Shown: positions 2 through 19,330 of the stretch, piece after piece
Numbering within the stretch: the first letter of the stretch is position 1
How the letters are laid out: each line of letters starts with the position of its first letter
Assembly (NCBI GenBank): GCA_028285085.1
Contig: JANQQI010000056.1
Location: 1-42,432 of the forward strand
Reading direction: 5' to 3'
From: Saprospiraceae bacterium
Lineage (GTDB): Bacteria > Bacteroidota > Bacteroidia > Chitinophagales > Saprospiraceae
Length of the DNA stretch: 42,432 bases
The notes under the pieces: model-generated
What the model saw: the letters and a program-made list of their open reading frames with translations, nothing else
Told to the model about the DNA's origin: nothing
Database searches by the model: none
Position numbers and translations under genes: made by a program

Positions 2-2407
2 GCTTTCGAGCAAAATATGCCTTACGATCAATTCGTCAAAAAACAGTTGGCTGGCGATCTGCTGCCCGACGCCCAAGCCGATGATGTGCTCGCCACCGCC
101 TTTCAGCGTAACCACCCTATGACTGCCGAAGGTGGTGTGATCGACGAGGAATTCCGACTTTCCTACGTTTTTGACCGCCTCGCCACCGCCTCAACGGCCT
201 TCTTGGGGCTGACGATGGACTGTGCACGCTGCCACGATCACAAATTCGACCCTATTTCGCAAAAGGAGTACTACAGCATGGCGGCCTTTTTTAATAATAT
301 CAAAGAATTGGGAATGACCGGAGATGATGGCAATTTCGGTCCCATTGCCTACGTCATGACCGATTCTCTACAGCAAGTGATCAATCAATGCCAGGAAAAA
401 TTACAAGCCATTGAAACGCAACGAGCAAGCAATCGTGATTCCCTGTTGCAAATCGCCTCTTTTATAAAACAAATCTCCAATGAAGTAACGCCTAAAGCAG
501 CCATACACGTCGATTTCGAAAAACCAAAAAGTAAAGATTACGGCTACCTGATCAACGAGAGTCCTAAAAGTAAGGCGACCGCAAGCAAGGGGGTCACTTT
601 TGTAGAAGGTCGAAATGGACAAGCCGTTTTATTTGACAATCAGTACGATGATGTCTACACCGATAAGGTAGGGTTCAAAGAATTGTATGAGCCATTTAGC
701 GCAGCGGCTTGGATCAATACCGCCCAAAGGCGAGCCGATAAAATGCAACAAATTTGTGGAACGACGGGAGATAAAAATAATGCGTGGCGTGGCTGGGAGT
801 TTTATCTCACCAATGAAAATCGCTTAGCCGTCCGACTCATCTCCGTTTTACCTCACAACTATCGCCATTTCGAAACACGCGATAGTATTGCCATTAACCA
901 ATGGACCCACGTCGCTTTTAGTTACGATGGCACCAATGCCGATCAATCAATTAGCATTTATATTGATGGCCAACGGGTGGAAATGGTCGTAAAATATAAC
1001 CAACTGACGGAAAGCATTTTGTCCTGTACTGCTAATGTCTATGAACCAGAAAATCGCTCCATTCGATGGGGAGCTGCCTATCGATCATTCACCGGTGAAT
1101 ATGGCTTATTCGTGGGAATGATGGATGATTTATACTTTTTTGAAAAGACCATCTCTCCTCTCGAAGTCGCGCAACTGGCTGAATTACCCGAAACAGCAAT
1201 CACGGAAGAGATGAGAAAGGACCATGCCTGGTTGCAGTCACCAACTTATTCTGCTGACGTTAAGCAGCGCCAAGCACTACAAAAACAATCGCTAACTGCC
1301 TACAACCAACTTACCGAAGTCATGGTTATGCAGGAAATGGACCAGCCGCGCGCCATGCATGTCCTAAATCGCGGCGCCTACGATCAGCCGCGCCAGCGCG
1401 TTGAGCCTAATACGCCTACCGCCGTTTTAACGTACCCAGACGATCTGCCAAAGAACCGTTTAGGTTTGACCGAATGGCTCTTTTCGCCCGAGCATCCACT
1501 CACAGCACGCGTTACTGCTAATCGTTACTGGCAAATGATTTTCGGCGAAGGTTTAGTTAGGACGCCACACGATTTCGGTAGTCAAGGTGAGTTACCTTCG
1601 CATCCCGAATTGCTGGACTGGCTCGCCCTTGAGTTACAATCATCCGAGTGGAATCTCAGAACTTTCTTACGAACCTTGGTTCTGTCCGCAACCTATCGAC
1701 AATCTTCAATGGCCAGCCCAGAGCTCAGTGAGCAAGATCCAACGAACAAATGGCTGGCTCGAGCCCACCCTCAGCGCCTGACCGCCGAAATGATCCGAGA
1801 TAATGCACTGGCTAGTAGTGGAATGTTATCTAAAAAAGTCGGGGGCCCTAGTGTTAAGCCTTACCAGCCCGAAGGCCTCTGGATTGAGCTGGGGAACTTC
1901 TCCGCCAAGCTACTCCACTTTGAGCAAGATCAAGGAGAAGCCAGTCGCCGGCGTTCCATGTACACCTTCATTCGACGGACTTCGCCGCCGCCCTTCATGA
2001 CTAATTTTGATGCACCCAACCGGGATATTTGCACTGTAAAGCGTGAACAAACCAATACCCCTTTGCAAGCACTGAATCTGCTCAACGACCCTCAATTTGT
2101 GGAAGCGGCTAGAGTGATGGCGCAACGGGTGCAAAGCGAGTGGCCGGAGCATACCCCTGAGCAACAAATTACACAAATGTACCGCCTCGTCGTTGGTCAA
2201 AAACCCAATGCCGCGCAATACAAAATACTTGTGGAACATTACGCCGAACAGCTTCAACATTTTCAAAATACACCAACGGCCATTGATGAATTATTAAGTG
2301 TGGGGCAATATCCTATTCCAAAAGATTTGAAAACGGCCCAAACGGCGGCACTGGCCATCGTCAGCAGCACGTTGTTCAATTCTGATTTATTTTACACCAA
2401 GCGCTAA
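2..2407 (+). CDS. DUF1549/LamG/DUF1553 (PSD1-type) protein, 5' partial
   Basis: The reading frame is open to the left edge (A-F-E-Q-N precedes the first Met at 17), so the N-terminus, probably a signal peptide, cytochrome c domain and most of DUF1549, lies outside the window. Visible from 17: the DUF1549 end with a CARCH motif (around residues 69-73) followed by DHKFDP; a LamG/concanavalin-like domain (about 165-385) with WTHVAFSYDG; then DUF1553 (about 480-790) with NRYWQMIFGEGLV, LVLSATYRQSS and NTPLQALNLLNDPQF. Families of this kind are exported proteins of unknown biochemistry common in Planctomycetes and polymer-degrading Bacteroidota, nearly always next to a DUF1501 gene, as here. The downstream gene begins 6 bases after the stop, so they are co-transcribed. 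Family assignment is firm; function is not known. Confidence 0.9.
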   Translation, partial: AFEQNMPYDQFVKKQLAGDLLPDAQADDVLATAFQRNHPMTAEGGVIDEEFRLSYVFDRLATASTAFLGLTMDCARCHDHKFDPISQKEYYSMAAFFNNIKELGMTGDDGNFGPIAYVMTDSLQQVINQCQEKLQAIETQRASNRDSLLQIASFIKQISNEVTPKAAIHVDFEKPKSKDYGYLINESPKSKATASKGVTFVEGRNGQAVLFDNQYDDVYTDKVGFKELYEPFSAAAWINTAQRRADKMQQICGTTGDKNNAWRGWEFYLTNENRLAVRLISVLPHNYRHFETRDSIAINQWTHVAFSYDGTNADQSISIYIDGQRVEMVVKYNQLTESILSCTANVYEPENRSIRWGAAYRSFTGEYGLFVGMMDDLYFFEKTISPLEVAQLAELPETAITEEMRKDHAWLQSPTYSADVKQRQALQKQSLTAYNQLTEVMVMQEMDQPRAMHVLNRGAYDQPRQRVEPNTPTAVLTYPDDLPKNRLGLTEWLFSPEHPLTARVTANRYWQMIFGEGLVRTPHDFGSQGELPSHPELLDWLALELQSSEWNLRTFLRTLVLSATYRQSSMASPELSEQDPTNKWLARAHPQRLTAEMIRDNALASSGMLSKKVGGPSVKPYQPEGLWIELGNFSAKLLHFEQDQGEASRRRSMYTFIRRTSPPPFMTNFDAPNRDICTVKREQTNTPLQALNLLNDPQFVEAARVMAQRVQSEWPEHTPEQQITQMYRLVVGQKPNAAQYKILVEHYAEQLQHFQNTPTAIDELLSVGQYPIPKDLKTAQTAALAIVSSTLFNSDLFYTKR

Positions 2408-2413
2408 TTGCCT

Positions 2414-3844
2414 ATGCATTGTCACGATTACCAAAAAGGATACACTCGCCGCGAATTTTTAGGCAAGACTTCATTAGGACTTGGTGCTCTGGCCCTAAGC
2501 GGCCTAATGAATCCACTGCAAGCGTTCGCACCGCCCGTCCATTCTGGGCTGCCTCATTTTCCAGCCAAAGCTAAAAGGGTGATCTACCTGTTCCAGAGCG
2601 GCGGACCGTCGCAGCAAGACATTTTCGATTACAAGCCGCTCTTGAATAAGATGCACGGCCAGGAAATTCCACCAAGCGTCAAAGGTGAAGGCCGTGTGAC
2701 GGGGATGACTGCCGGGCAATCTAGTTTTCCTCTGGTAGCCGGCCCATTTCAGTTTAAGCAATACGGGCAAAGTGGGGCCTGGATCAGCGACCTGATGCCT
2801 TATCTATCGCAGATCAGTGATGAGCTTTGCTTTATCAAAAGCATGCATACGGATGCCATCAATCACGATCCGGCCATTACCTTTTTGCAGACCGGGTCGC
2901 AATTCCCGGGGCGGCCCAGCATTGGAGCTTGGGTAAGCTACGGGCTGGGATCGGACAACGAGAACCTACCGGCCTTTGTCGTTTTAGTCACTAAGAATCA
3001 GCGGGGGCAACCCCTCTACGCGCGCTTGTGGGGCAATGGCTTTTTGCCGTCGGAGCATCAAGGGGTGCAATTTCGGGCGGGTGAAAACCCGGTTTTATTC
3101 CTCAGCAACCCGCCGGGCGTAGATGCTAAAAGCCGACGGGCTCAACTGGATGCCCTCAAAGCACTGCAACAGCAACAACTAGAACACACTCAAGATCCAG
3201 AGGTTGCCGCCAAGATCGCGCAATACGAAATGGCCTACCGGATGCAAACCTCAGTGCCCGAGATTATGGATGTGAGCAAAGAACCAGAATACATTTACGA
3301 TATGTACGGGCCAGCTAGTCGCATTCCCGGTAGCTTCGCCGCAAATGCCTTGCTGGCCAGGCGGCTGGTGGAACGCGGTGTAAAATTTGTCCAATTGTAC
3401 CACCAAGGCTGGGATGCCCACGGCAATGCCATCAATAACCATCGCCGGCAATGCACCGATGTAGATCAACCGACAGCCGCACTGATCATGGATTTGAAAC
3501 AGCGCGGGCTTTTGGAAGATACACTGGTGATTTGGTCCGGTGAATTTGGGCGGACCTCCTATTCACAAGGCAAGATCACACCTACGGAATACGGTCGTGA
3601 CCATCATCCGTCTTGCTTTACCCTGTTTATGGCGGGGGCCGGCGTAAAAAAAGGATTCAGCTACGGTACCACGGATGACTTTTCGTATAACATCGTTTCG
3701 AATCCGGTACACGTCCACGATTTTCAAGCTACGTTAATGCATCTATTGGGCATTGACCACGAGCGCTTTACCTTTAAGTATCAGGGTCGCCGCTTCCGCC
3801 TGACGGATGTGCACGGCTCGGTAGTACACGATATTTTAGCTTAA
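2414..3844 (+). CDS. DUF1501 family protein, Tat-exported
   Basis: 476-residue protein of the DUF1501 (sulfatase-fold-like) family. The N-terminus has a twin-arginine signal, T-R-R-E-F-L-G-K at residues 11-18 followed by a hydrophobic Leu/Ala/Gly stretch, so it is folded in the cytoplasm and exported by Tat. Motifs typical of the family: FQSGGPSQQDIFDYKP near the N-terminus, HQGWDAHG, WSGEFGRTSYSQG and GRDHHPSCFTLFMAGAGVKKG. The frame is open from a TTG at 2408, but I choose the ATG at 2414. Partner of the preceding DUF1553 gene and separated from the next gene by 3 bases. The family resembles alkaline phosphatase/sulfatase folds, but no substrate can be named. Confidence 0.9.
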   Translation: MHCHDYQKGYTRREFLGKTSLGLGALALSGLMNPLQAFAPPVHSGLPHFPAKAKRVIYLFQSGGPSQQDIFDYKPLLNKMHGQEIPPSVKGEGRVTGMTAGQSSFPLVAGPFQFKQYGQSGAWISDLMPYLSQISDELCFIKSMHTDAINHDPAITFLQTGSQFPGRPSIGAWVSYGLGSDNENLPAFVVLVTKNQRGQPLYARLWGNGFLPSEHQGVQFRAGENPVLFLSNPPGVDAKSRRAQLDALKALQQQQLEHTQDPEVAAKIAQYEMAYRMQTSVPEIMDVSKEPEYIYDMYGPASRIPGSFAANALLARRLVERGVKFVQLYHQGWDAHGNAINNHRRQCTDVDQPTAALIMDLKQRGLLEDTLVIWSGEFGRTSYSQGKITPTEYGRDHHPSCFTLFMAGAGVKKGFSYGTTDDFSYNIVSNPVHVHDFQATLMHLLGIDHERFTFKYQGRRFRLTDVHGSVVHDILA

Positions 3845-3847
3845 TTT

Positions 3848-5200
3848 ATGGATTGGGGAACATTTCTTGGCCGTTTTCATCCTTTGTTGGTCCATCTACC
3901 CATTGGAATGGTCATCTTAGCCGTCATTTTAGAATGGCTCGACCGCTACTGTCAGCCTAATACACGGCGCTTAGTCTGGGGACTGGCAGGCCTCTCTGCC
4001 GTTTTATCTATCGTTGCTGGCTGGCTCCTGGCTAACCAAGGTGCTTACGAAAACATGACCTTATTCTGGCATCGCTGGTCGGGCATTGCGATCGGTATTT
4101 GCGCCGTTTTAGCAACCTTCTGGCAACCCAAAAATCAGCTGGTCAAAAAATACTTTTCGGTATTCACCATCCTGCTCCTCACGCTAGCTGGCCACTTAGG
4201 TGGACGATTGACCCACGGGGAACACTATCTTACCGAGCATGCGCCAGGTTGGTTACAAGATTGGAGCGGACATCCTGCACCGGCGCCTCATCCCAGCACT
4301 CACCTCCCGGTAGATAGTCTTCGATTTTATCCCCACCTTATCCAGCCTTTTTTGGATCAAAAATGTGTCCACTGCCACGATGCTGCAGGGCCAAATGGTG
4401 GGCTTCGGGTAGATGACGCAGCAGCCGTTTTTGTCGGAGGCGATGAAGGTCCGGCGGTCATTCCCGGGCGAGCCGAGGAAAGCAGTTTATACGAGCGTGT
4501 CATTATTGATCCAGGGCATCGGAAATTTATGCCGCCTAATGGTGACCCGCTGAGTTATGGTGAAATCCGTTTGCTGGAATTTTGGATTCAGAGCGGAGCC
4601 GATACGGTGCAGCATCTTAAAGCGATGGCGATTCCTAAGGATATTGAGGCTTTGCTGGCGCGGGACTATGCGTTGGATCTTCGGCCCAAGCCTTTTGCGG
4701 AACAGTTTGATTTTCCTCCACTTGATTCAAGTTTGGTGGTTGATTTAAAAAATAAAAACTTTCTCGTTCGAAACGTATCGACAAATTCTCATGCCGTTGA
4801 GGTCAATGTTCCCTACGGTTCAGTCAACACTGCTGATTTGGAACCTATAGCCGGAAACATTATTGCCTTGAAGTTGGAACAGCAAACGATTAATGATTTT
4901 TCTATTTTTCAAAAAATGACTTATCTCCAATCGCTATCGCTTCGCCAAGCACAATTCCCATCTGCATCTGATTTATTACAACTCAAAACCCTCCCCTATC
5001 TGGAGATATTAAACCTGGGACAGACTACCATCAACAAAGAAGATATCATTGCACTTTGCCAGCAACTGCCCCGTTTACGCAAACTGTTTATTTGGGAAAC
5101 CGGAATCACACCCGAAGAACACGAGGCGCTACAACAACAATTTGAATCCATCGAGATTATCCATCACTTTTCATTTACCACTAAAAACAATGACCAATGA
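3848..5200 (+). CDS. DUF2231 membrane / cytochrome c-like / LRR protein
   Basis: 450-residue composite protein. Residues 1-110 form a DUF2231-like membrane domain (HPLLVHLPIGM at 11-21, several hydrophobic helices). A planctomycete-type cytochrome c segment follows, with C-V-H-C-H at 173-177, GGLRVDDAAAVFVGG and a later KFMPPNGDPLS carrying a possible axial Met. The C-terminal 120 residues are leucine-rich repeats (LQSLSLRQAQF, LEILNLGQTTI, LRKLFIWETGI). It starts 3 bases after the DUF1501 stop and its stop overlaps the next start (ATGA), so it belongs to the same operon. The DUF2231-cytochrome-LRR arrangement recurs in PSD1/DUF1501 loci. It may pass electrons for, or anchor, the exported partners; that is inference. 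Confidence 0.85.
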   Translation: MDWGTFLGRFHPLLVHLPIGMVILAVILEWLDRYCQPNTRRLVWGLAGLSAVLSIVAGWLLANQGAYENMTLFWHRWSGIAIGICAVLATFWQPKNQLVKKYFSVFTILLLTLAGHLGGRLTHGEHYLTEHAPGWLQDWSGHPAPAPHPSTHLPVDSLRFYPHLIQPFLDQKCVHCHDAAGPNGGLRVDDAAAVFVGGDEGPAVIPGRAEESSLYERVIIDPGHRKFMPPNGDPLSYGEIRLLEFWIQSGADTVQHLKAMAIPKDIEALLARDYALDLRPKPFAEQFDFPPLDSSLVVDLKNKNFLVRNVSTNSHAVEVNVPYGSVNTADLEPIAGNIIALKLEQQTINDFSIFQKMTYLQSLSLRQAQFPSASDLLQLKTLPYLEILNLGQTTINKEDIIALCQQLPRLRKLFIWETGITPEEHEALQQQFESIEIIHHFSFTTKNNDQ

Positions 5201-6228
5201 GCAATCGTCGGCGTTTTATGCAAACCGCAGGAGCCGGGCTATTAGGACTTAGCCTGCCGAATATCACTACAGCACGAACTCCCTCTCGTCACGACAAACC
5301 GATCATTGGCCACGGTGATTATCGCTATCGCCTGCATCAGGATTGGGGTATTCAGGACGCGCGACAGTTTCCGGTACAACACTGCCATGAAATGGTGATC
5401 GATCGTCGAGGACGTATTTTTTTACTCAATTCTCACCCCAAAAACAACATCCTCATCTATGATCGCTCGGGTAAAGTACTCGATAGCTGGACGCTGAATT
5501 TAGATGGTGCTCATGGCTTAACGCTCATCGATGAAGGCGGAACGGAATATTTGTGGATCACCGATCCCGATAACCATAAAGTCGTTAAAACCACGCTTGA
5601 CGGCAAAGTCGTGCAAGAATTATTTCCTCCTGGCGACATTTATGAAAAAGCGGATTATTGGAAACCGACCGAAACAGCCGTAGCCCCTAATGGCGATATA
5701 TACGTTGCGGACGGTTATGGCCAAAATTATATCACGCAATACGATGCGCAAGGCAAGGTCGTCCGTTACTTCGGTGGAAAAGGACGAGCGGACGCCCTTT
5801 TTGATTGTTGTCACGGGGTAACGCTCGATACCCGTGGCTCGGAAGACCGTCTAATCATCACCTCTCGTTCTAATCAGTGCTATAAATACTTTAGCCTCGA
5901 CGGGCAGCATCAGCGCACGGTGGAGCTCAACAACATGTGGATTTGCCGGCCGGTATTGAAAGGTGATATGCTCTATTTCGCAGTCATCGTTTCGGAAGAC
6001 TGGGGTCGCTACGATGGGATGCTTGCCGTCATTGATGCCAATGATCAGGTTGTTTCCCTACCCGGTGGTGCTGCGCCTAATTACGAAAAGGATACACTCC
6101 AAAAAGTTGTTTACGATGACTTTAGTTTTTTGAATCCCCACGATGTTTGCATCGATAGTGACGATAACCTCTACGTCGCCCAATGGAATTCGGGGCGGAC
6201 GTATCCGTATATGCTGGAGCGGGTGTAA
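5197..6228 (+). CDS. NHL-repeat beta-propeller protein, Tat-exported
   Basis: 343 residues. The N-terminus has a twin-arginine-type signal (S-N-R-R-R-F-M-Q-T-A-G-A-G followed by a Leu-rich stretch), so export by Tat is likely. The rest is a six-bladed NHL/SMP-30-like propeller with repeated GRIFLLNSHP, GLTLIDEGG, DPDNHKVVKTTLDGK, APNGDIYVADGYGQNYITQYDAQGKVV and DNLYVAQWNSGR blades. The start overlaps the preceding stop by four bases (ATGA), implying translational coupling. It is the last gene of the PSD1/DUF1501 operon; the next gene is convergent with a 33-base gap and no clear terminator. Related propellers include peptidylglycine-alpha-hydroxyglycine lyase-like proteins and sugar lactonases; the reaction cannot be assigned. 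Confidence 0.85.
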   Translation: MSNRRRFMQTAGAGLLGLSLPNITTARTPSRHDKPIIGHGDYRYRLHQDWGIQDARQFPVQHCHEMVIDRRGRIFLLNSHPKNNILIYDRSGKVLDSWTLNLDGAHGLTLIDEGGTEYLWITDPDNHKVVKTTLDGKVVQELFPPGDIYEKADYWKPTETAVAPNGDIYVADGYGQNYITQYDAQGKVVRYFGGKGRADALFDCCHGVTLDTRGSEDRLIITSRSNQCYKYFSLDGQHQRTVELNNMWICRPVLKGDMLYFAVIVSEDWGRYDGMLAVIDANDQVVSLPGGAAPNYEKDTLQKVVYDDFSFLNPHDVCIDSDDNLYVAQWNSGRTYPYMLERV

Positions 6229-8385: not shown

Positions 8386-8429
8386 AATAGAACACATAGG
8401 ATCGAACAGGGTGTAAATCATCAATTTAA

Positions 8430-9083: not shown

Positions 9084-9114
9084 GTCACGTTTTTCTCCAG
9101 TCGGCTTTATAGGA
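9084..9114 (+). promoter_or_regulatory. Alternative sigma promoter motif, copy A
   Basis: GTCACGTTTTT (9084-9094), 11 bases, then TTTATAGGA (9106-9114). The same two blocks with the same spacing occur at 17513-17543 (minus) and 17927-17957 (plus). Read as a promoter this is GTCACG, 17 bp, TTATAGG, with a start near 9120, about 100 bases before the first T9SS cargo gene at 9218. No TAnnTTTG box lies between it and that gene. The likely reader is the sigma-like factor at 17989-18666 (inference). Confidence 0.7.
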
Positions 9115-9217
9115 GCAAAGTTTTTAAATACATCCGTCAGAATTGCGGCCGCACTTCTCCCGAGATGGAGCCTAAGCTTTCAAAATAATCAATCATCCTT
9201 TTCAAAATTGTTAGATT

Positions 9218-9841
9218 ATGCAACTCATCTTAACTCTTGCCTTATGTCTCAGTGGGGCGTTTTTGTTCGGCCAGTCTGTTTTTTTAGAACCCTTGGATTG
9301 CCATGGGCTAAAAGTCAGCGATTATCAAGCGGAAGATGGACAAAGACAAATCCTGCATCTAGAGAAAGAAATCATTCCTGGTGTTTGGCAGCAGGTTGAT
9401 TTCGTTACTGCAAAAACGACAAACTATTCTTTTACTCAACTGGCCCCCGGTACTTATCGCGTCACTGCCTTAGCAGAAGCGATTCGCCCAGGAAAAACAG
9501 ATCGCTATACCAAGACCAAGGTTGAGAATCATATTTCAAACGCGATCACAATTGGTTGTATCGATGAACGTGGTGAAGTCGTGGCTACTGATCTGATCGG
9601 ACAGGTTCGACTTACTCCTAATCCGGTACAAGATCGTTTGCTTATTCATTTTAGCCGTCACCCCAAAGCACCAGTCCAATATGAAATCATAAACCTCAAC
9701 GGAGAGAGCTTGTACGAGGGTACGATCCGAGGGCATCAGGCCGCGGTAGCAGTAGACGAGCTCACTAACGGCCTGTACTTCATTCGATTGTACAGCGGTC
9801 AAACCTTTAGCCACAGCGCCCGCTTTGTGGTCTCTAAGTAA
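9218..9841 (+). CDS. Small T9SS type A cargo protein
   Basis: 207 residues. A Sec signal peptide (MQLILTLALCLSGAFLFGQ) is followed by an approximately 100-residue domain I do not recognise (contains FTQLAPGTYRVTALAEA, a beta-sandwich-like strand pattern) and a C-terminal T9SS type A sorting domain starting at V-R-L-T-P-N-P-V-Q-D-R-L and ending G-L-Y-F-I-R-L-Y-S-G...F-V-V-S-K. The product is expected to cross the outer membrane through the type IX secretion system and be released or anchored at the surface. It is 30 bases upstream of another T9SS cargo gene and lies behind promoter motif copy A, so the two likely form one transcription unit ending at the hairpin at 12710. Confidence 0.8.
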   Translation: MQLILTLALCLSGAFLFGQSVFLEPLDCHGLKVSDYQAEDGQRQILHLEKEIIPGVWQQVDFVTAKTTNYSFTQLAPGTYRVTALAEAIRPGKTDRYTKTKVENHISNAITIGCIDERGEVVATDLIGQVRLTPNPVQDRLLIHFSRHPKAPVQYEIINLNGESLYEGTIRGHQAAVAVDELTNGLYFIRLYSGQTFSHSARFVVSK

Positions 9842-9871: not shown

Positions 9872-12631
9872 ATGAAAAATATATTGTGTCTTATTTTATT
9901 TACCCTGAGCGCCCAACTTAGTTTTGCTCAATTGGGTACCGGCGATGGCCGCCCCGGTGATGATCGTCCTGAAGATCGACTCGTTCGTATGGACAAAAGT
10001 CCACTCCAAGCTTTCCAATCTACGACTGCCGGTGAGCATGAAGCCAAATTTGCGATTGACGATGATTATGAGTCAAATTCTTTGACGTACCAAGATCCAA
10101 TTTGTTGGTGGCGCACGGATTTTGGCGCCAATGTCGCTCTGCAAGGCATTAGCCTGGAAACTACTTTAACTAACTTCTACATTTTCACCTCTGAAGCCCC
10201 ATTCCAATCTTTCGCCATTGAAGAACTGATTCAAGATCCTTGGGTAGATTATTTTCACGTAACGGACGGTATCCTCCCAGAGACCATTATTCCCACTACT
10301 TTTCCGGTACGACACGTGAGTGTCATCTCCGTGAATCCGGTTAAAATCAAAATCAGAGAAATTGACTTCTGGATTGGTCCAGATGGAAGCGGTCCCGGTG
10401 TGGGTTTCGCTGAGGATTGTACTGACGGTATCGACAACGATGGAGATGGCCTAGTCGACTGTGAAGACTATCCCTGCGGTATCGGTTTTATGAATGTAAG
10501 TTATACCGAGCCGACCTGTCCAATTTGCGATGATGGCGAAATCTGTATTCAGGCGGGTAATGCCGATGAGGTCAGCTTAGATGGTGGTGAGACTTGGTTA
10601 CCTATCCAGATTGGTGTAAACTGTTTCGACAATTTACCTGAAGGCACCTACAACGTAATCGCACGCAAGTCTTCAACTGGTTGCACTAAAACATGGTCAG
10701 ATCCTATTATTTTAGAAGCACCGAGAGGTGAGAATGGTGATTGTGTAAATGGTGGCTTTGAAGAAGGATCATTCGAAGGCTGGACTGGTGGTTTGGGAGC
10801 TAACAACAATGGAACAATCGATATTAGTAACCAGGATTTTGACCTTAACAACCGCCATACCATCATCCCTAGCAGTGGTTTTCAAGATCCTTTTGCACCT
10901 GCTATTAATGGGGCATGGGGGGCTTTGGGTACTTACATTACTCGTCTGGGGAACAGCACAAGAGGATCCGAAGCGGAGCGTCTGACTTATTGTTTTACTG
11001 TAGATAGTGACAATGCGGATTTCCATTTCAACTATGCCGTGGTTTTGGAAGAACCAGGACATACTGGTCCTCCCCTATTCCGTTATAAAATCTACAATCA
11101 GTCGACGCCAAATGTCTCTATCGTAGAGAACGAAATTTCTTCCGAAGCGCCATTTCTGATTGTATCACCTTCAAATGCACACGTAGAGTATCAAGGCTGG
11201 ACCTGTGTTGAAGCGGATTTATCCAACTTGATCGGGGAAACAGTATGTGTAGAATTCATCACTGCAGATTGTAAAGATGGCGGGCATTTCGGTTATGCCT
11301 ACATTGATGGCCTCTGTACTCCAATCAGCGCACCTTCAGTCACTCTGGAAGCAAATGAAATCTATTGCGTCGGTCAAACCGTAGAGGTTACGGCAGCGGG
11401 TGCTGGTTATAATCAGTTTGAATGGCAAATATCGAAATTAGATGCTGATGGGCAAGAATACGAGACCGTAACACTTAGTCAAGCGGCGGATTTCAATACG
11501 ATGATTTCAGATTTAGTTGGAGAATACGAAGCGAACTCAAACTATACTTTAAGTTGTGATCAACAGGTCCGTGTCAAGTTTATCTCTGGCAATGGTTGCG
11601 CAAGTTCGGTAAGTAAACTTGATTTTAAAATTGTTTGCCCAGAGTACGATATCGATTATTGTGATAATGTCATTCACTGTAGCGGCAGCTTTTTGGAAGT
11701 ACCTATTTTGGGTGAAGTCGATTGCCCGGGTTGCACTTACCAATGGAGTCCACCGCAGTATTTAGATGATGAGACCGCTCAGTTTCCGGTTATTGAAACA
11801 GCTAATTGGGGCAATGCTTTGAATCGCACCTACTCCGTGACAGTAACTAGTCCAGAGGGTTGTCTTTATACAGACCAGGTTTATGTAGATGATGATAATG
11901 GGTATAAAGTCACATTAGAAGTGGAATCTACTTCTTGCTCTTACGTGGTCACCGCTACGATTACTTTCCTCGAGCCCATAGCGGACAACAATATTACCCT
12001 CGTCGGTACCGACCAGGAGGATAACGATGCCCCTGTCAATTTTACATTAACAGGGAGTTCTCCTACTGTCAAAGTATTCACTTCGGAAGTAATCGATCGC
12101 GATGCAGACTCCCGAGTTCGAGTAGATGTCGATGTCATTTACGATTCTTATGCTTGTGTCATCGGTACAAATTGTAGTACGACTAAGGTTGCCCCTACCG
12201 TTCCGGAAAGCGCTTACTCAACACCTTGGGCGATCACTTGGCCTAACATCTTTGCACCGCAAAGTCAAAACAATAATCAATGGCGCACTTTCATCTCGGG
12301 AATAGATGCTGCCAATTGTACAACCAATAGTATCAGCAGTGTGAGCTTCCTTAAGATTTCCATCTTCGACCGTTGGGGTAATCTGGTATTCCAAGAGTCC
12401 GAGTCTAAGCAGGGTTTGAATGGTTTGGATGGCTCAGGAATCGTTTGGGACGGTACTTTCAATGGCTCTTTTGTAGAAGCGGGAGTGTACGCGATTCTTA
12501 TCGAGGCAGAAAGCTGCTGGAGTGGTAGCCACCCTTGTCCGGCCTTCTGCCAAGGGAATAACGCCCCATTTGAAGAATGTCCAACGGAAAACTCTGTCAT
12601 CTTTTCTGCGGACGTAACGGTAGTCTACTAG
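9872..12631 (+). CDS. Large T9SS type B (gliding-associated C-terminal) surface protein
   Basis: 919 residues with a signal peptide ending S-F-A-Q. The N-terminal region resembles a discoidin-like/unknown domain. Around residues 180-200 is a DxDxDG calcium-type motif (D-G-I-D-N-D-G-D-G-L-V-D-C-E-D). Residues about 290-480 look like a jelly-roll domain (CVNGGFEEGSFEGW ... GHFGYAYIDGLC). Cysteine-rich Ig-like segments follow. The C-terminus (about 815-919) is the gliding motility-associated CHU_C/T9SS type B domain (ISIFDRWGNLVFQ, WDGTFNG, EAGVYAILIEAE). It is a large secreted or cell-surface protein, possibly an adhesin; no enzymatic motif is visible. Second gene of the two-gene cargo unit. 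Confidence 0.85.
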   Translation: MKNILCLILFTLSAQLSFAQLGTGDGRPGDDRPEDRLVRMDKSPLQAFQSTTAGEHEAKFAIDDDYESNSLTYQDPICWWRTDFGANVALQGISLETTLTNFYIFTSEAPFQSFAIEELIQDPWVDYFHVTDGILPETIIPTTFPVRHVSVISVNPVKIKIREIDFWIGPDGSGPGVGFAEDCTDGIDNDGDGLVDCEDYPCGIGFMNVSYTEPTCPICDDGEICIQAGNADEVSLDGGETWLPIQIGVNCFDNLPEGTYNVIARKSSTGCTKTWSDPIILEAPRGENGDCVNGGFEEGSFEGWTGGLGANNNGTIDISNQDFDLNNRHTIIPSSGFQDPFAPAINGAWGALGTYITRLGNSTRGSEAERLTYCFTVDSDNADFHFNYAVVLEEPGHTGPPLFRYKIYNQSTPNVSIVENEISSEAPFLIVSPSNAHVEYQGWTCVEADLSNLIGETVCVEFITADCKDGGHFGYAYIDGLCTPISAPSVTLEANEIYCVGQTVEVTAAGAGYNQFEWQISKLDADGQEYETVTLSQAADFNTMISDLVGEYEANSNYTLSCDQQVRVKFISGNGCASSVSKLDFKIVCPEYDIDYCDNVIHCSGSFLEVPILGEVDCPGCTYQWSPPQYLDDETAQFPVIETANWGNALNRTYSVTVTSPEGCLYTDQVYVDDDNGYKVTLEVESTSCSYVVTATITFLEPIADNNITLVGTDQEDNDAPVNFTLTGSSPTVKVFTSEVIDRDADSRVRVDVDVIYDSYACVIGTNCSTTKVAPTVPESAYSTPWAITWPNIFAPQSQNNNQWRTFISGIDAANCTTNSISSVSFLKISIFDRWGNLVFQESESKQGLNGLDGSGIVWDGTFNGSFVEAGVYAILIEAESCWSGSHPCPAFCQGNNAPFEECPTENSVIFSADVTVVY

Positions 12632-12709: not shown

Positions 12710-12740
12710 GCCACCCCTTAACGGGGGTGGCTTTTTCTTT
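12710..12740 (+). terminator. Rho-independent terminator of the T9SS cargo pair
   Basis: Perfect 8-bp stem GCCACCCC / GGGGTGGC with a 6-base loop followed by TTTTTCTTT. It overlaps the last bases of the convergent CHAT gene. There is no T-run on the minus strand, so it serves the plus strand only. Confidence 0.85.
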
Positions 12741-15597
12741 ATGACTTAGCTCGCCGGCGCCAAACGGTTATTAAAAGGAGCACACCTAAACCGCCCAACC
12801 ACCAAGCCCATTGCCAACTACGGGCCGCAGTCAGTTCCATCGCATTAGGATCTCCGATGAGGATAAAATTGGACCAGTAGGCAGGCAAAGCCTGGCTCGG
12901 CGGAGCCGCCGCCAGATAGTCTTGCTTAGCAGCCCGCAAGGCCGCAGCCTTAGACATGCCTGCTTGCAGATTTTGGTAAAACGATAACAAAATATCCCGC
13001 GTCGATTTTTCTGCTGCCGGCCACTGACTGGCTACTATCGACGGGCAGCCGGCATAGGCAAAGCTGCGCGCCAAACTTCGGATGCCCTCTCCTTTGCTCA
13101 ACTTTCCAGCCGCGGTGTTGCACGCACTGAGCACAACCAAATCGGCTTGCAAATCAAGATTGTAAATTTCTAACGAACGGAGCAGAAAAGGATCCTTAGC
13201 TTTCCCACCGTGAAAGACCAGCGCAGTCTGCTCGGGAAATTGCTCGTTCATCAACGCATGCATCGATAAATGTAAAATCTGCGCTGCCCCGGCCTCGCCG
13301 ACAAAGTGAGCCAGCGTAGCGGCCGCCCCCAGACGCGTTTGGCCATCAAACAGCGCCGCCGAACGGAGCGTCTCTTCTTCCGAAAACTGCAAGCGACTCA
13401 GGCTTTGTCCATTCCAGCCCTCTTCGTCCAATCGTCCTAATGTCATTTCATCGTAAGCCAGTCCCACGCCATAAAAAGGAGCTACACTGCTTGCTAAAGT
13501 AGCGGAAGGAGCATCCGTCAGCAAGCGGGTACTGTATACATAAGATAGCATATAATTCTCCAGAAGATAGCCTTTGAGTCCTGCGGCTTGGCCATCGTTT
13601 TGATACTTCAGGGCTTCGAAGGGCACTTGATGGAGGACATTATCGGGAACCACAATTAGATGGTCAATTTCTGCATGTGCTTGCAAATGGGCGACGAGGG
13701 CCTCCGGGAAAAGTTGTTGATAGAGTTGAAAAGAAAGGTCCGTAAAATCAACCTGATTTTGCTCCAAATTTTGTCGAAACGCAATAAAATCTTGATCAAG
13801 ATCTTGTGTTTTGGGTTGACGTAAAAATAGGGTCGTATCCTGATCAATAAAAAAGATGAACAGCTCGTCGACACCGTAGAAATATTCTAACAATCCCTGA
13901 CCTGCTTGCAAAGAAGATCGAATCTCTGTAAAATCAGGCGGCCGCAAAAAGGCATAATTATCATTGTAGTATTGGGGATAAGTTCGAGCAATCTCATCCA
14001 ATAGTCGTTCCTTGGCACGTACTTGCTCGAAATAGGCTGAATATAGGCTATCACGCACCGACAATTGATTGATTTCAGCCTTTTGGATCGCCAAGGTTGT
14101 TGCTCTTAAGTCGGCATCTAATGCGGCACTTTGTTGTTGGATCGCCTCCGGCAATTGCTTTTGTGTACGCTGCGTCCGTATGCCTTCCAAAAGAATGATC
14201 GCTTTATTTCGCGCAACGAAGCGATAGGCATTATCCAGATATTGCTGGTTGTTTGTTTGCAGGAAAAGCTGGTGTGCGTTGGCAATGGCTCGCTCGTAAA
14301 TCTGCAGGCTTCGCGCAATCTGCGAAAACTTAGAGTCTGTAGCAAGAAAACGCTGTCGCAGTAAAACAATCAAGCTATCCGTTTTTAAATCAATGCGATG
14401 CGCATTTTCCAGCCAGCTTAAATCGCCTGTATTTTCGAAAATCTTTTGATAAAGGCGAGACTGTAGACCAAACAATCGAATCAAATCATTGCGATCCGAA
14501 ATAAAAGTACGCTGAATAGCGATTTGCTCGACGGCATCTCCCGACCAGGCAGGCATTAGAATTGAAATCGCCCGGTTGAAATAATCCCGTGCACGGTCCA
14601 ACTCCCCCATTTCCAGATAGAGTTCACCAATATTTTCGTATTCCGCGGCAATGGTAGGATGATTAGATTTATTGTAATGCTGTTGTTTTAAAACGAGTTG
14701 CTCTTCGTACAGTCCCAAAGCCTCAGAAAATCGACCTTGCCGCTTCCGAATGGCGGCCAAAACAGAGTTGTCGGTAATTCGGCCCTCGATCCATTCTAAT
14801 TCATCGGCCATCTTCAGGCCACGCTGCACATAGGTGGTTGCCAACTCCAGCTCATTCATTACGCCGTAGGTACGACCAATATTCTGGTAAATATTATGGA
14901 GTTCTACACTCGCTTCGGCCGTTTCACCGTAATAATCCACTGCTTGCAAAAGATCTGCTAAACCTTCTGCATAATTCTGCATCTCAACTTTAATCACACC
15001 TAACTCGCGGTAAACATTTGCCCGAATCGCCTTATCCGAAGGTTGGGTTAAAAGAAGAGCACGTTCCGAGTAGATTTGGGCCTGATACAGATCTGCTTTT
15101 TCTAATAAAAAATCGGCCACTTCTACGTATTTATCCGCCAGTCCCAGTGAATCGGCCACTGGAAGTTGATCATACATCGCTAAAGAACGTTCGAAGTATA
15201 TTCTGGCTTGCTCATCTTCAAATAAATACTTGTGGGCACTTGCTAGGTTATACAGCAAATTCGCATTTTTGGCGTGGACCACCCCGAAGTGTTCCTCACT
15301 TAACTGTAGTGCCGTTTCCCACTTCTCGATCGCCTGTCGTTCTTCATCCAGGTAATAATAACAAACCCCCGCTTTGCGCACGACTTCTAGTCGCAAAGAA
15401 TCACTCAACGGATAATCTGCTGCCAAAGTATCGAGTAGAGCAATCGCCGCTCGATAAGCTGGTCGTTCATCCTGATCCATTAAGGTCAGGGCTTCCTGAT
15501 ATAGCTTCATCGCATCTTGAGCTTGCCCACGATGAGTTAGAAAGATCAAAAAAATGCAGCAGAGGAGAGGCCTAAAAAAAGAATAGGAGCGCAACAT
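12739..15597 (-). CDS. Exported TPR-CHAT protease-like protein
   Basis: 952 residues. A Sec signal peptide (hydrophobic LLCCIFLIFL, cut after G-Q-A-Q) is followed by tetratricopeptide repeats over about residues 30-400, a helical linker, and a C-terminal CHAT domain (about 560-920). The CHAT His-Cys dyad is present: H780 in L-S-M-H-A and C826 in L-S-A-C-N-T-A-A-G. A single membrane helix near 926-945 (W-W-L-G-G-L-G-V-L-L-L-I) precedes a basic tail W-R-R-R-A-K-S, so the bulk should sit in the periplasm anchored in the inner membrane. CHAT proteins are caspase-like proteases; TPR-CHAT proteins include Csx29 of Craspase. Upstream on the same strand is the S8 protease gene, separated by a terminator-like hairpin. 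It lacks the GTCACG promoter motif. Target unknown. Confidence 0.9.
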   Translation of the reverse strand: MLRSYSFFRPLLCCIFLIFLTHRGQAQDAMKLYQEALTLMDQDERPAYRAAIALLDTLAADYPLSDSLRLEVVRKAGVCYYYLDEERQAIEKWETALQLSEEHFGVVHAKNANLLYNLASAHKYLFEDEQARIYFERSLAMYDQLPVADSLGLADKYVEVADFLLEKADLYQAQIYSERALLLTQPSDKAIRANVYRELGVIKVEMQNYAEGLADLLQAVDYYGETAEASVELHNIYQNIGRTYGVMNELELATTYVQRGLKMADELEWIEGRITDNSVLAAIRKRQGRFSEALGLYEEQLVLKQQHYNKSNHPTIAAEYENIGELYLEMGELDRARDYFNRAISILMPAWSGDAVEQIAIQRTFISDRNDLIRLFGLQSRLYQKIFENTGDLSWLENAHRIDLKTDSLIVLLRQRFLATDSKFSQIARSLQIYERAIANAHQLFLQTNNQQYLDNAYRFVARNKAIILLEGIRTQRTQKQLPEAIQQQSAALDADLRATTLAIQKAEINQLSVRDSLYSAYFEQVRAKERLLDEIARTYPQYYNDNYAFLRPPDFTEIRSSLQAGQGLLEYFYGVDELFIFFIDQDTTLFLRQPKTQDLDQDFIAFRQNLEQNQVDFTDLSFQLYQQLFPEALVAHLQAHAEIDHLIVVPDNVLHQVPFEALKYQNDGQAAGLKGYLLENYMLSYVYSTRLLTDAPSATLASSVAPFYGVGLAYDEMTLGRLDEEGWNGQSLSRLQFSEEETLRSAALFDGQTRLGAAATLAHFVGEAGAAQILHLSMHALMNEQFPEQTALVFHGGKAKDPFLLRSLEIYNLDLQADLVVLSACNTAAGKLSKGEGIRSLARSFAYAGCPSIVASQWPAAEKSTRDILLSFYQNLQAGMSKAAALRAAKQDYLAAAPPSQALPAYWSNFILIGDPNAMELTAARSWQWAWWLGGLGVLLLITVWRRRAKS

Positions 15598-15728: not shown

Positions 15729-15766
15729 AAAAAATCAGGGCTATTCCCATTTGCTGGAAATAGCCC
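15729..15766 (-). terminator. Terminator-like hairpin between S8 and CHAT genes
   Basis: On the minus strand GGGCTATTTCC pairs with GGGAATAGCCC (one bulged base), followed by TGATTTTTT. It lies 40 bases after the S8 stop and about 130 bases before the CHAT start. It should end most S8 transcripts and allow at most partial read-through into the CHAT gene. Confidence 0.7.
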
Positions 15767-15805: not shown

Positions 15806-17347
15806 TTATTCCTTTACCACGACGCGTGTATCTTCCCAGGTATCCGTCATCACGTGCAACATCAAGGCGCCTTTTGCCTCCACTTGCCGCAGATCGATAG
15901 CTACTCCGACGTCTCCTGCCTCAAGCTGTGCTTGTCCAGCAGCTAACTGCTGCCCCATAAGATTATAGATTTGCCATCGGAGCATTGCTGGCACCGTTTG
16001 TTCGGTTTGAATGAAGAGTTGATCCGTAAAAGGATTAGGACTAATTCTCCATTCGGAGGAGGTCATTACCTCCATATCTGCCTCACTATTTGTCCCGGCC
16101 AGAGAGCAGCTATTGGCCAATAGACGCTGCAATGCATTCGAAGCATTTAATACCCCACCGGTTACGGTGAAATCCTCTAGTTCTGTAACCAGAGTTGTCC
16201 CTTCGAGAAGTGCACATTTGATTGCCTCCGGATCAGCAATAGTTTGTCGGGTCGACATGCCAATCGCGACAGCACTGGTCAAGGCTGCAGCTTGAGATGT
16301 TCCTGACATCTGCTTGATCCCTCCTACTAAGTCTGGTCCTTCAACGCCTTCTCCAATAGTGGCCAAGTCGACATTGGTTTCTCCATAATTACTAAATATA
16401 CTTAAGTTTTCTGCACAGTCTACCGAAGCGACGCTCACGATATTATCCAAGCGGAAGCTAGCCGGAAAGGCACGCAAATCGGGGGCATCATTATCGTGAT
16501 GATCATTACCCGCCGAGGCGATGACTAAAACACCTTCAGCCGCTGCAGTCTGGATCGCAATTTCAAAAGGAACCGGCTCGTCCTCTGGTTCTGCGTAATA
16601 GGAAAAACACATCGTCGCAATTCGAATATCAGCTTGTAAGATCGATTCATCGAGTGCTAAAATGACATCAGAAATATAGCCATAGCCTTCGTCATCGTGG
16701 GTTTTACGAATATCATACTCAATTCTACTACTTGGATAAAAACTATTCGCGATGTAATTAACACCCGCAATGGATCCGGCAACGTGAGTACCATGGCCAT
16801 TATCATCAAGTACCGAAGCCGAAGCATCAACGTAACCTCTGCCAGTATAATTATCAATAGCGAATTGTCCCGTTGACCCAATTGTGGAGGAAATCCCGGT
16901 ATCAAAAATACCAATGCGCACGATCTCGGCGCCTAAGGCATTATCCAAATCGAACTGTCCTTGACAATCCGCAGGTTCTCGTCCAGTGCCTCGATTAAAC
17001 GGCTCTATGTTAGCAATGAAGTCATAATCACCACCGGTCACTTTCGATTTTTTCTTAGCTCGGTCGATTACCTCATTGATATCCGTGATCGTAATTAAAA
17101 ACCCGCCTTCATTAATTGTAAATGGAAAAAATTTCACTTCGCACAGATGTACATCCGATAATGGGCTCACCCAGACTTGTTCGGAATTCAATTCCAACAT
17201 CAAATCATCAATATACGTTTGTGCGGTCCCGGCGTCAAATACAAGCATGTAGCGATCGGGAGAATAAGGGCTTTGCGCATTTAACTGGTAAAATAATCCA
17301 ATAGAACAGAGGGCCATAAAAATGGCCAAGGTTGTTGTCTTTTTCAT
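15806..17347 (-). CDS. S8 (subtilisin-like) serine protease with T9SS tail
   Basis: 513 residues from the ATG at 17347 (M-K-K-T-T-T-L-A, a good signal peptide; the frame is open 10 codons further but that start would spoil the signal). A pro-region of about 110 residues precedes the catalytic domain. The full triad is visible: D149 in R-I-G-I-F-D-T-G, H185 in N-G-H-G-T-H-V-A-G and S351 in S-G-T-S-Q-A-A-A; the oxyanion Asn is in A-S-A-G-N-D. The last 80 residues are a T9SS type A sorting domain (W-R-I-S-P-N-P-F-T-D-Q-L ... R-V-V-V-K-E). It should be secreted to the surface or medium. Its promoter is probably the GTCACG motif at 17513-17543, which faces the sigma factor gene's own copy. Confidence 0.9.
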   Translation of the reverse strand: MKKTTTLAIFMALCSIGLFYQLNAQSPYSPDRYMLVFDAGTAQTYIDDLMLELNSEQVWVSPLSDVHLCEVKFFPFTINEGGFLITITDINEVIDRAKKKSKVTGGDYDFIANIEPFNRGTGREPADCQGQFDLDNALGAEIVRIGIFDTGISSTIGSTGQFAIDNYTGRGYVDASASVLDDNGHGTHVAGSIAGVNYIANSFYPSSRIEYDIRKTHDDEGYGYISDVILALDESILQADIRIATMCFSYYAEPEDEPVPFEIAIQTAAAEGVLVIASAGNDHHDNDAPDLRAFPASFRLDNIVSVASVDCAENLSIFSNYGETNVDLATIGEGVEGPDLVGGIKQMSGTSQAAALTSAVAIGMSTRQTIADPEAIKCALLEGTTLVTELEDFTVTGGVLNASNALQRLLANSCSLAGTNSEADMEVMTSSEWRISPNPFTDQLFIQTEQTVPAMLRWQIYNLMGQQLAAGQAQLEAGDVGVAIDLRQVEAKGALMLHVMTDTWEDTRVVVKE

Positions 17348-17512
17348 GATAATTCCGTTTTTGAAAGTGAAGGCCAAACAGTGAATCCATCGAGTAAATA
17401 ATATTTAATCTGCTGGTTTTCCTAATGCTGGAAAGAATGCTTAAGATTAAAATAAATACTCGCTCGCCTTGTTCACACTATGCTAACCTCAAGTTATTAT
17501 TAAAAAATCTGC

Positions 17513-17543
17513 CCCTATAAGACCTGACCTCAAAAAACGTGAC
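17513..17543 (-). promoter_or_regulatory. Alternative sigma promoter motif, copy B (S8 protease)
   Basis: On the minus strand: GTCACGTTTTT, 11 bases, CTTATAGGG. It is identical in both blocks and in spacing to copy C and nearly so to copy A. Initiation would be near 17507, leaving a leader of about 160 bases before the S8 protease start at 17347. Confidence 0.75.
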
Positions 17544-17926
17544 CTGTATATGAAAAAAAATTTAGCCCTTTTTAAAATTAAAAAAAGAAGGGGCACAGAA
17601 ACGGAAAGCCATGCCCCCAAGAAAAAGACAACGTGCACTTCACGCGCGATCCGTACATACATATGGTAAAAGTCTTTATTGTCAAAAATGTGACTAAAAA
17701 TTATCTTTTTCTCTCTTTCGCGGATTTCCTCCTAAAGATTTCAGCAGAACTCAGCTACAAGGATGCGTTAGCTAAGGTCTTGAAGTTGTTGCTAATTTAT
17801 TTCCAGGCTTTCTTGAGTCGAGACTAAGTACTCTTTAGTTAGTATAGTCAAAAAGCATTTTGCTTCGCATCTTTTGATTAGTTAGCTACCCTTTGGAGCT
17901 GTTTTTCCAAAAAAATGAAAAAAGAA

Positions 17927-17957
17927 GTCACGTTTTTCCAAAAACTGACTTATAGGG
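17927..17957 (+). promoter_or_regulatory. Alternative sigma promoter motif, copy C (sigma gene)
   Basis: GTCACGTTTTT (17927-17937), 11 bases, CTTATAGGG (17949-17957). The -10-like block ends 31 bases before the ATG of the sigma-like gene, which suits a short leader and suggests autoregulation. The spacer between GTCACG and TTATAGG is 17 bp. Confidence 0.75.
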
Positions 17958-17988
17958 TCGAATCTCCTTAGACTGTATTATTACAATT

Positions 17989-18666
17989 ATGGTAAAGAAA
18001 AGACAACGTACTGATTACCAGTCTGAATTGCAACTTAATGCTATTTTTGTCAAGCGAAATCAGCAAACTCAACAGATTGGTATGAGTAAAAACTTTGGGC
18101 TAAACCAACAAGACTTCGATGGGCTGGTGCACGAATTGCAATCCGGCAATCAAACACTCTTTGAAGCGATTTTTCTCAAACATTTCAAAGATTGTATGCA
18201 CTATCTGATCAATAATTTTGGGACACAACAACCTGATGCTTATGACTTGACCATGGATACGCTCCTGGAATTTCGACAACGCCTGATCGACGGAAAGGTG
18301 GAATATGGTAATCTCCAGTTTCTCTTCACTCGAATGGCCGTACAAAAGTATTGGCGTTGGGCGGGCAAGCAAAAAAAACAGCAAAACCCCATGCCCTCTT
18401 CCACCACTGAAACGATGTATGTTTCGCAAGAAGAAGAGGAACCAATCAGTGAATCGGAAATCAATTTGTTGAACAAGGCTTTGGAAAAAATCAGCACGGA
18501 ATGCCGTCAGTTGCTCCAGAGCTTCTACGTCCACAGAGTCAAACTCCGAGAACTAGCCATCGAAACCGACCGAAAACCCGAAGCTGTTCGCAAGCAGAAG
18601 CAGCGATGCATTAACCGACTTAGACAATTATTTTTACAATATTCCAAGCAGTATGTCAAAAGATAA
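17989..18666 (+). CDS. Sigma-70 family (ECF-like) RNA polymerase sigma factor
   Basis: 225 residues. Residues about 45-135 fit sigma region 2 (LVHELQSGNQTLFEAIFLKHFKDCMHYLI, the DAYDLTMDTLLEFRQRL core helix, then FTRMAVQKYWRWAGKQKKQQ). Residues about 155-215 fit region 4 with a helix-turn-helix (LNKALEKISTECRQLL, KLRELAIETDRKPEAVRKQKQRCINRLRQLF). There is no region 1.1 or 3, as in ECF-type factors. Start: ATG at 17989 fits the promoter motif ending at 17957; an internal ATG at 18082 (M-S-K-N-F-G) would give a more usual family length and cannot be excluded. The stop overlaps the next gene by 14 bases. It probably reads its own promoter and those of the S8 protease and T9SS cargo genes (inference). 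Confidence 0.85.
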   Translation: MVKKRQRTDYQSELQLNAIFVKRNQQTQQIGMSKNFGLNQQDFDGLVHELQSGNQTLFEAIFLKHFKDCMHYLINNFGTQQPDAYDLTMDTLLEFRQRLIDGKVEYGNLQFLFTRMAVQKYWRWAGKQKKQQNPMPSSTTETMYVSQEEEEPISESEINLLNKALEKISTECRQLLQSFYVHRVKLRELAIETDRKPEAVRKQKQRCINRLRQLFLQYSKQYVKR

Positions 18667-19330
18667 TTTTATCCGCGGCAATATGTCCGCGGACGAGCAA
18701 GATCACTATCTACAGAAATTATTCGATCAACGTGCAAATGCACTACGAAAACAACGTTGGGCCAAACTACTGGCCGAGCAAGAACAAATCATTCGCGAGC
18801 CCTCTCCCACCAAGCCGTCAAATAATTGGCGATCTTTTCTCTTTATCGCAGCGGGCTTAGCCATGCTCATGGCCTTCTGCCTCTGGTGGCTACAGCCACA
18901 AAACGAGCCGATGCAACTGGCCGATCAATACCTTAATTCAGCAGATATTCACGACCCACGCGGTATCAAAGGTGAGATAGAGACAGAAACCCTGCGTTTA
19001 CAAGCCGTTGAAGCCTTTAACGATGGCAATTACACCGAGGCCATCACCGCATACGAAGCATTGGAAAGAAACACAAATACTTTAACTATCGAAGATCAAT
19101 TCCATTTTGCCTTAGCGTTTTTGCTGGATAAACGTTCTGCGGAAGCTATTCCCCGCTTGCAATCTTTACAAGGTGAACCGCGCTATCAGCAGGAAGTCCA
19201 ATGGTATCTGGGGTTAGCTCATTTGCAAAATAATGATCCCGAAGCGGCCCAAGGTGTTCTTGAGCAAATTCAGGCTGCCGAATGGCAGTACCAGGCAGCA
19301 CAAGAAATTTTATCCAAACTCAGTCGGTAA
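18653..19330 (+). CDS. Membrane-anchored TPR protein, candidate anti-sigma factor
   Basis: 225 residues. The N-terminal 60 residues are charged and helical (DEQDHYLQKLFDQRANALRKQRWAKLLAEQ), then one membrane helix at about 61-80 (W-R-S-F-L-F-I-A-A-G-L-A-M-L-M-A-F) and a periplasmic part with TPR-like repeats (about 112-220: EAFNDGNYTEAITAYEALE, QWYLGLAHLQNNDPEAAQGVLEQI). The gene starts inside the end of the sigma gene (14-base overlap), the usual arrangement for a sigma and its membrane anti-sigma. No zinc-type anti-sigma motif (HxxxCxxC) is seen. The cytoplasmic stretch is the likely sigma-binding part, and the TPR part could sense or be cleaved by periplasmic partners. Role is inference from topology and gene order. 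Confidence 0.6.
   Translation: MSKDNFIRGNMSADEQDHYLQKLFDQRANALRKQRWAKLLAEQEQIIREPSPTKPSNNWRSFLFIAAGLAMLMAFCLWWLQPQNEPMQLADQYLNSADIHDPRGIKGEIETETLRLQAVEAFNDGNYTEAITAYEALERNTNTLTIEDQFHFALAFLLDKRSAEAIPRLQSLQGEPRYQQEVQWYLGLAHLQNNDPEAAQGVLEQIQAAEWQYQAAQEILSKLSR

Follow-up and report, generated by a model that had tools for sequence, protein, structure and literature searches.

The window analysed here, a stretch of 42,432 nucleotides from a Saprospiraceae bacterium, carries an ECF-type sigma factor gene and an S8 subtilase gene that face apart, each preceded by the same bipartite motif. Which factor reads the motif, and which genes does it control? The sigma factor gene (17989..18666, plus strand) encodes a protein of 225 residues, assigned by TIGR02937 (51.2 bits, cut-off 42.9) and by the alignment of its relatives. 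The S8 subtilase (15806..17347, minus strand; PF00082, 87 bits) has a signal peptide and a weak type A tail of the T9SS that scores below cut-off. A pattern search found two copies of GTCACGTTTTT-N11-CTTATAGGG, at 17927-17957 on the plus strand ahead of the sigma gene and at 17513-17543 on the minus strand facing the S8 gene, as the sequence-only reading had claimed; they are identical in 20 of 20 fixed bases, and their spacers and flanks are not alike. The mean number of such 31-bp patterns in 100 shuffles of the window was 0.00. As putative promoters, both copies read GTCACG-N17-TTATAGGG. Known Bacteroidota promoters are dominated by the TAnnTTTG type, and the claim that this box is absent between the copies and their genes also holds, with none on either strand at 17222-18041. 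The -10 element of the window sites is TTATA and lacks a CGT; GTCAC-N18-TTATA differs in this respect from the ECF motif reported in Flavobacterium, which has CGT in its -10 box as outlined in PMC9723704.

The whole genome (7,470,950 bases, or 7.47 Mb, on 140 contigs) was scanned for the 31-bp pattern at up to three mismatches, giving three matches, all in the window, against none for the reversed control. The third copy, overlooked in the sequence-only reading, lies at 9084-9114 on the plus strand with two mismatches, ahead of a T9SS cargo gene. That reading had named random occurrence inside genes as an outcome that would count against it; GTCACG-N17-TTATAG instead occurs exactly five times, each ahead of the start of an open reading frame, and its reversed control gave no match. 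The five comprise the three window sites and two on another contig, C124, ahead of lipoprotein-like genes. From the end of the motif to the start codon, the distance is 31 nt for the sigma gene, 165 nt for the S8 gene, 103 nt for the gene at 9218, and 20 and 21 nt for the two C124 genes. Two looser patterns were rejected as unspecific: GTCACG-N16-CTTATAGG at up to two mismatches (11 matches, 41 in the reversed control) and GTCACR-N16-CTTATAG at one mismatch (7 against 13). Because these scans matched the reversed control more often than the pattern itself, weak matches were not used. Between the two divergent promoters, at 17694 on the minus strand, stands GTCACA-N16-CTTTTACC, which agrees in 5 of 8 bases of the -10 part and may be the degenerate remnant of a third intergenic copy.

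Behind the S8 gene on the minus strand lies a TPR-CHAT protease gene (12739..15597; PF12770, 192 bits), whose product has a signal-like N-terminus and a C-terminal hydrophobic helix. The two genes are separated by 208 nt, including a terminator-like hairpin (15738..15766, minus strand; -23.9 kcal/mol, z -5.6) followed by a run of T's; CHAT in the window may therefore be reached only by read-through. The gene behind the third copy, a predicted target (9218..9841, plus strand), encodes a small secreted protein with a T9SS type A tail (PF18962, 39.3 bits), and the adjoining gene for a 919-residue secreted protein (9872..12631, plus strand), with a weak type B tail below cut-off, is a candidate member of the same unit. 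The C124 genes (L045, 9235-12492) form a tandem pair of 490-494 residues, 70% identical to each other, with no Pfam match to either protein; the motif is kept ahead of both and the surrounding DNA has diverged. Elsewhere in the window (17-6225, plus strand), PSD1/PSCyt2, DUF1501, PSCyt1 and NHL-repeat genes are clustered; genes of this kind take their name from the Planctomycetes.

We propose, with good confidence and on comparative sequence evidence, that the locus encodes an autoregulated ECF sigma factor with a candidate membrane anti-sigma factor and exported proteases as its output. The candidate is a single-span membrane protein of 225 residues with an outer TPR domain (18653..19330, plus strand), whose gene overlaps that of the sigma factor at 18653-18666. 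In 52 of 54 relatives, some 60 residues precede the single span, and the structural model is divided into an inner helical part, residues 1-57, and an outer TPR part. It thereby shows the layout of membrane anti-sigma factors, namely an inner N-terminal domain, one span and a gene adjoining that of the sigma factor; this protein is most likely the anti-sigma of the factor encoded at 17989. ECF sigma factors with a membrane anti-sigma and an autoregulated promoter are known as the RseA-RpoE type. The present locus resembles it in the single-span membrane gene that overlaps the sigma gene and in the promoter-like motif ahead of the latter, and differs in that the outer part is a TPR domain. Regulation of this type is also among the subjects touched on in PMC10028731.

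The strongest competing account retains all of this except the inhibitor: the membrane TPR protein would be no anti-sigma, and the factor would be ruled by proteolysis or by its level alone, as proposed for ECF54. Domain searches of the membrane protein gave TPR matches only and none to known anti-sigma domains. ECF54, which also has subtilase and CHAT proteins encoded beside the ECF gene and is thought to have no anti-sigma, as summarised in PMC8999054, provides a precedent for the company of ECF, S8 and CHAT genes. The comparison is one of descriptions, in which ECF54 is controlled without an anti-sigma, whereas here a membrane gene overlaps the sigma gene. This overlap, the single span at a constant position in the relatives and the division into inner and outer parts speak against the account, which we consider unlikely but still a serious contender.

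To what extent the motif follows the sigma gene was addressed in 198 genomes of the family, of which at least 46 were sigma-bearing, as defined by a relative at E 1e-18 or better. Exact GTCACR-N16-CTTATAG was present in 23 of the 46 sigma-bearing genomes (46 being a lower bound) against 5 of 152 others (p 6e-13), and 44 of the 49 sites fell in sigma-bearing genomes. The reversed control gave 50 sites, in 9 of 46 sigma-bearing and 33 of 152 other genomes (p 0.84). About 28 of the 49 sites were inspected as loci. The five sites in sigma-free genomes all fall within open frames that are 612-1009 codons long. Among 23 motif loci in sigma-bearing genomes, 10 sites precede a sigma or S8 gene and four a gene with a signal-like start, with N-termini read by eye; the remaining nine precede none of these, and one of the nine (L098) lies inside open frames. 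In one genome (G149, L138 3916-8399), an S8-CHAT pair has its own motif, with no sigma relative within the 12 kb examined, and another copy, at 8426, lies ahead of the gene for a 290-residue protein that looks secreted.

A scan of nine chosen named genomes for GTCACRTTT-N13-YTTATA gave 15 sites, 13 of them around the sigma locus, against one for the control. Lewinella cohaerens DSM 23179 has three, one of which lies 15 nt ahead of a gene read as S8-like, and the copy opposed to its sigma promoter faces a gene that reads as NUDIX-like, not S8. In Aquimarina algicola, one site stands ahead of the S8 gene and one ahead of a carboxylase-like gene, and Flagellimonas and Poritiphilus each have one site before similar genes, the one scanned being DUF2490. 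The S8 proteases of the Aquimarina cassettes (L174 7313-8920; L216) have an Asp/Glu run soon after the signal peptide.

These associations bear on the possibility that another sigma factor of the genome reads the motif, the adjoining one being merely one of its targets. A candidate for this role exists on contig C5, where a second member of the subfamily, 44% identical, is also preceded by GTCAC, and the genome has further ECF genes. The C5 locus (L046, 1076-10399) is a paralogous cassette that encodes a sigma factor, a TPR protein with one span and an S8 protease, together with a tandem pair of lipoprotein-like genes. However, the promoter of the C5 sigma gene keeps GTCACA and has CTTCTATT in place of CTTATAGG, giving GTCACA-N16-CTTCTATT, and no GTCACG-N17-TTATAG lies nearby. 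Two other ECF genes of the genome beside TPR-CHAT genes (L047 on contig C137 and L049 on C83), distant from the subfamily, have no site at up to two mismatches. Together with the concentration of the motif around the sigma locus in the nine named genomes, this makes recognition by another factor improbable, and recognition by the factor encoded at 17989 is the reading we retain.

Conservation of the motif was analysed upstream of 54 loci, comprising that of the window and 53 sigma relatives of the same family that are 31-45% identical (tblastn E below 1e-18); L115 nearly duplicates L116, and the upstream region is incomplete in three cases. An unbiased search of all 5-mer pairs at gaps of 10-22 in 700 bp upstream, excluding low-complexity words, returned GTCAC-N18-TTATA as the top dyad, in 25 of 54 loci in sense and 27 of 54 in antisense orientation, compared to 4 of 53 for the best pair downstream. 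It is found on at least one strand in 34 of 54 loci, on both in 18 and on neither in 20; in 200 first-order shuffles, the mean was 0.1 and the maximum 2. The reversed upstream set mirrors the motif and is unfit as a control. The motif is not due to chance. In many relatives (e.g. L058, L059 and L063), open frames reach 60-120 codons upstream of the KNFGL signature, which suggests an N-terminal extension in those with the longer frames.

Named genomes, when scanned, yielded 65 loci, 20 of them from Flavobacteriaceae by record title or by genera placed there. The dyad lies upstream of sigma in 18 of these 20, both misses reading TTATT, with a mean of 0.016 in 500 shuffles. As the downstream dyad control was full of GATGA-type repeats, the specific dyad and the shuffles were used instead; the specific dyad is found downstream in 1 of 20. 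Fifteen exact dyads in these loci fall outside the upstream windows, and only some of these are accounted for. Aquimarina belongs to the class Flavobacteriia and the Saprospiraceae to the class Saprospiria, so the promoter is kept across a class-level distance. In a phylum sample of 296 genomes, eight match the sigma profile at E 1e-15; outside the factor's own genome, no match reaches 70 bits, a level typical of generic ECF factors, and the distribution of the subfamily is therefore patchy.

The anatomy of the sites is promoter-like. The gap between GTCAC and TTATA is 18 in 82 of 96 sites, and the remaining 14 are spread over the other gaps between 10 and 27. Among 78 distinct sites, position 6 is a purine in about 98%, a C directly precedes TTATA in 60%, the bases ahead of it are A+T rich, and a purine lies 33 bases past the first G in 91%. 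If this purine is the transcription start, as we assume, TTATA would occupy -10 to -6 and GTCAC -33 to -29. The starts in the window are placed by the same assumption, near 17960 for the sigma operon, near 17510 for the S8 gene, with a leader of about 160 nt, and near 9117 for the third copy; all three predicted start bases are purines on their own strand. Conserved bipartite sites can also be operators of DNA-binding regulators. Nevertheless, the motif is non-palindromic with one fixed gap and A+T-rich bases upstream, the purine recurs at the expected start, and at the sigma and C124 genes the start codon is as close as 20-31 nt; moreover, the sigma gene is the constant partner, and the TAnnTTTG box is absent beside the motif. 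An operator is thus very improbable, and a sigma promoter remains our interpretation.

The ECF sigma, single-span TPR protein, S8 and TPR-CHAT genes are arranged either in one collinear row behind one motif or in two divergent units. Both sigma and S8 genes are present in 51 of 84 loci. In the 17 collinear loci (15 from Flavobacteriaceae), with S8 downstream of sigma in the same orientation, the dyad is found within 500 bp of sigma in 15 and of S8 in one, the latter being the locus with the longest distance from sigma to S8. In the 34 divergent loci, it is found within 500 bp of S8 in 20 and of sigma in 17, leaving 14 S8 and 17 sigma genes without it. An S8 promoter of its own is accordingly present in 20 of 34 divergent against 1 of 17 collinear loci (p 2.5e-4). 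Of the 44 loci that contain both S8 and CHAT, 43 have CHAT behind S8 in the same orientation, and in these 43 the dyad is absent from the 400 bp ahead of CHAT. Where the exact dyad is missing upstream of sigma (20 loci), GTCAC/GTGAC occurs at 2.6 per kb upstream, compared to 0.85 per kb over the loci, and in some of these loci (L109, L052 and L125) both directions share one altered -10.

The opposed promoters also covary. The comparison covered 36 loci in which both strands carry GTCAC[AG] and took the best-matching pair of opposed promoters over base 6 and the -10 region, 15 positions in all. Promoters of one locus share 9.22 of these 15, permuted partners 7.18, and 0 of 2000 permutations reached the observed value. 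The spacer control gave 4.11 of 11 against 3.60 (22 of 2000), which assigns a small share of the covariation to composition. Such covariation locus by locus is expected if one factor reads both promoters. That the pair in the window is a recent functionless inverted duplication, as its agreement in all 20 fixed bases might suggest, is next to negligible, since spacers and flanks differ, 18 of 54 relatives have opposed pairs with other sequences, and collinear gene rows are served by single copies.

Altogether, conservation in two families, the rigid gap, the association across genomes and the replacement of two promoters by one in collinear rows support the claim of the sequence-only reading that the encoded sigma factor drives itself and the S8 gene; the motif is best regarded as the predicted promoter of an ECF sigma subfamily. 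Against the full explanation stand the 20 of 54 upstream regions without an exact dyad, the divergent S8 and sigma genes that lack one, the nine inspected motif loci ahead of other genes, the NUDIX-like gene opposite sigma in L. cohaerens, the exact dyads of Flavobacteriaceae outside the upstream windows, the long leaders of the S8 and 9218 genes, and the strong hairpin between S8 and CHAT. In the proposed mechanism, the factor encoded at 17989 would recognize GTCAC at about -33 and TTATA at about -10 across the 18-base gap, and transcribe its own operon of sigma factor and membrane TPR protein, together with the divergent S8 gene, the T9SS cargo gene at 9218 and the two C124 lipoprotein-like genes. 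TPR-CHAT, which follows S8 in nearly all relatives, probably joins the same output, in the window only by reading through the hairpin. We infer that the membrane TPR protein most likely keeps the sigma factor at rest until an envelope signal frees it, and the freed factor would then enter a positive feedback loop that raises the exported proteases.

For the release step, TPR-CHAT might cleave the outer TPR part of the membrane protein, a speculation from topology and fold by analogy to the action of Csx29 on Csx30 (described in outline in PMC10028731) and, as a second case, to DdvA (PMC4374960, likewise in outline). His780 and Cys826 of TPR-CHAT are invariant in 30 sequences, and the protein combines the TPR-CHAT fold with His and Cys, as in type III-E Craspase. 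A PDB search with the single TPR-CHAT sequence returned TPR proteins only, and PADLOC gave just weak matches to general subtilase, IetS and TPR models. Compared to the Craspase system of Csx29, Csx30 and CASP-sigma, TPR-CHAT here has a signal-like N-terminus and a C-terminal hydrophobic helix, and is accompanied by an S8 protease. The sigma factor was rejected as a CASP-sigma (NF041236, 22.1 bits against a cut-off of 100), and there are no Cas proteins among the 18 window proteins scanned. The locus departs from Myxococcus DdvS-DdvA in that TPR-CHAT is encoded apart from the candidate anti-sigma and is joined by an S8 protease. The ECF-caspase neighbourhoods outlined in PMC8195603 are different ones. 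Going by the search listings, no report of the cassette or the motif was found in the open-access literature searched, nor of the membrane TPR protein, the GTCAC-N18-TTATA promoter, or the split and collinear layouts. By this analogy, the locus might be a CRISPR-free envelope counterpart of Craspase in at least two Bacteroidota families, in which TPR-CHAT would sense an event, cleave the TPR anti-sigma and free the ECF factor to produce more sigma, TPR-CHAT and secreted S8; we put this forward tentatively, as a somewhat doubtful extension.

These results define from sequence an ECF sigma subfamily with its predicted promoter, gene row, candidate anti-sigma and a small regulon of five genome sites, in a phylum known mainly for promoters of another type. 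If TPR-CHAT acts on the anti-sigma, the circuit of sigma factor, inhibitor and protease known from type III-E CRISPR would have an envelope version that is independent of CRISPR.
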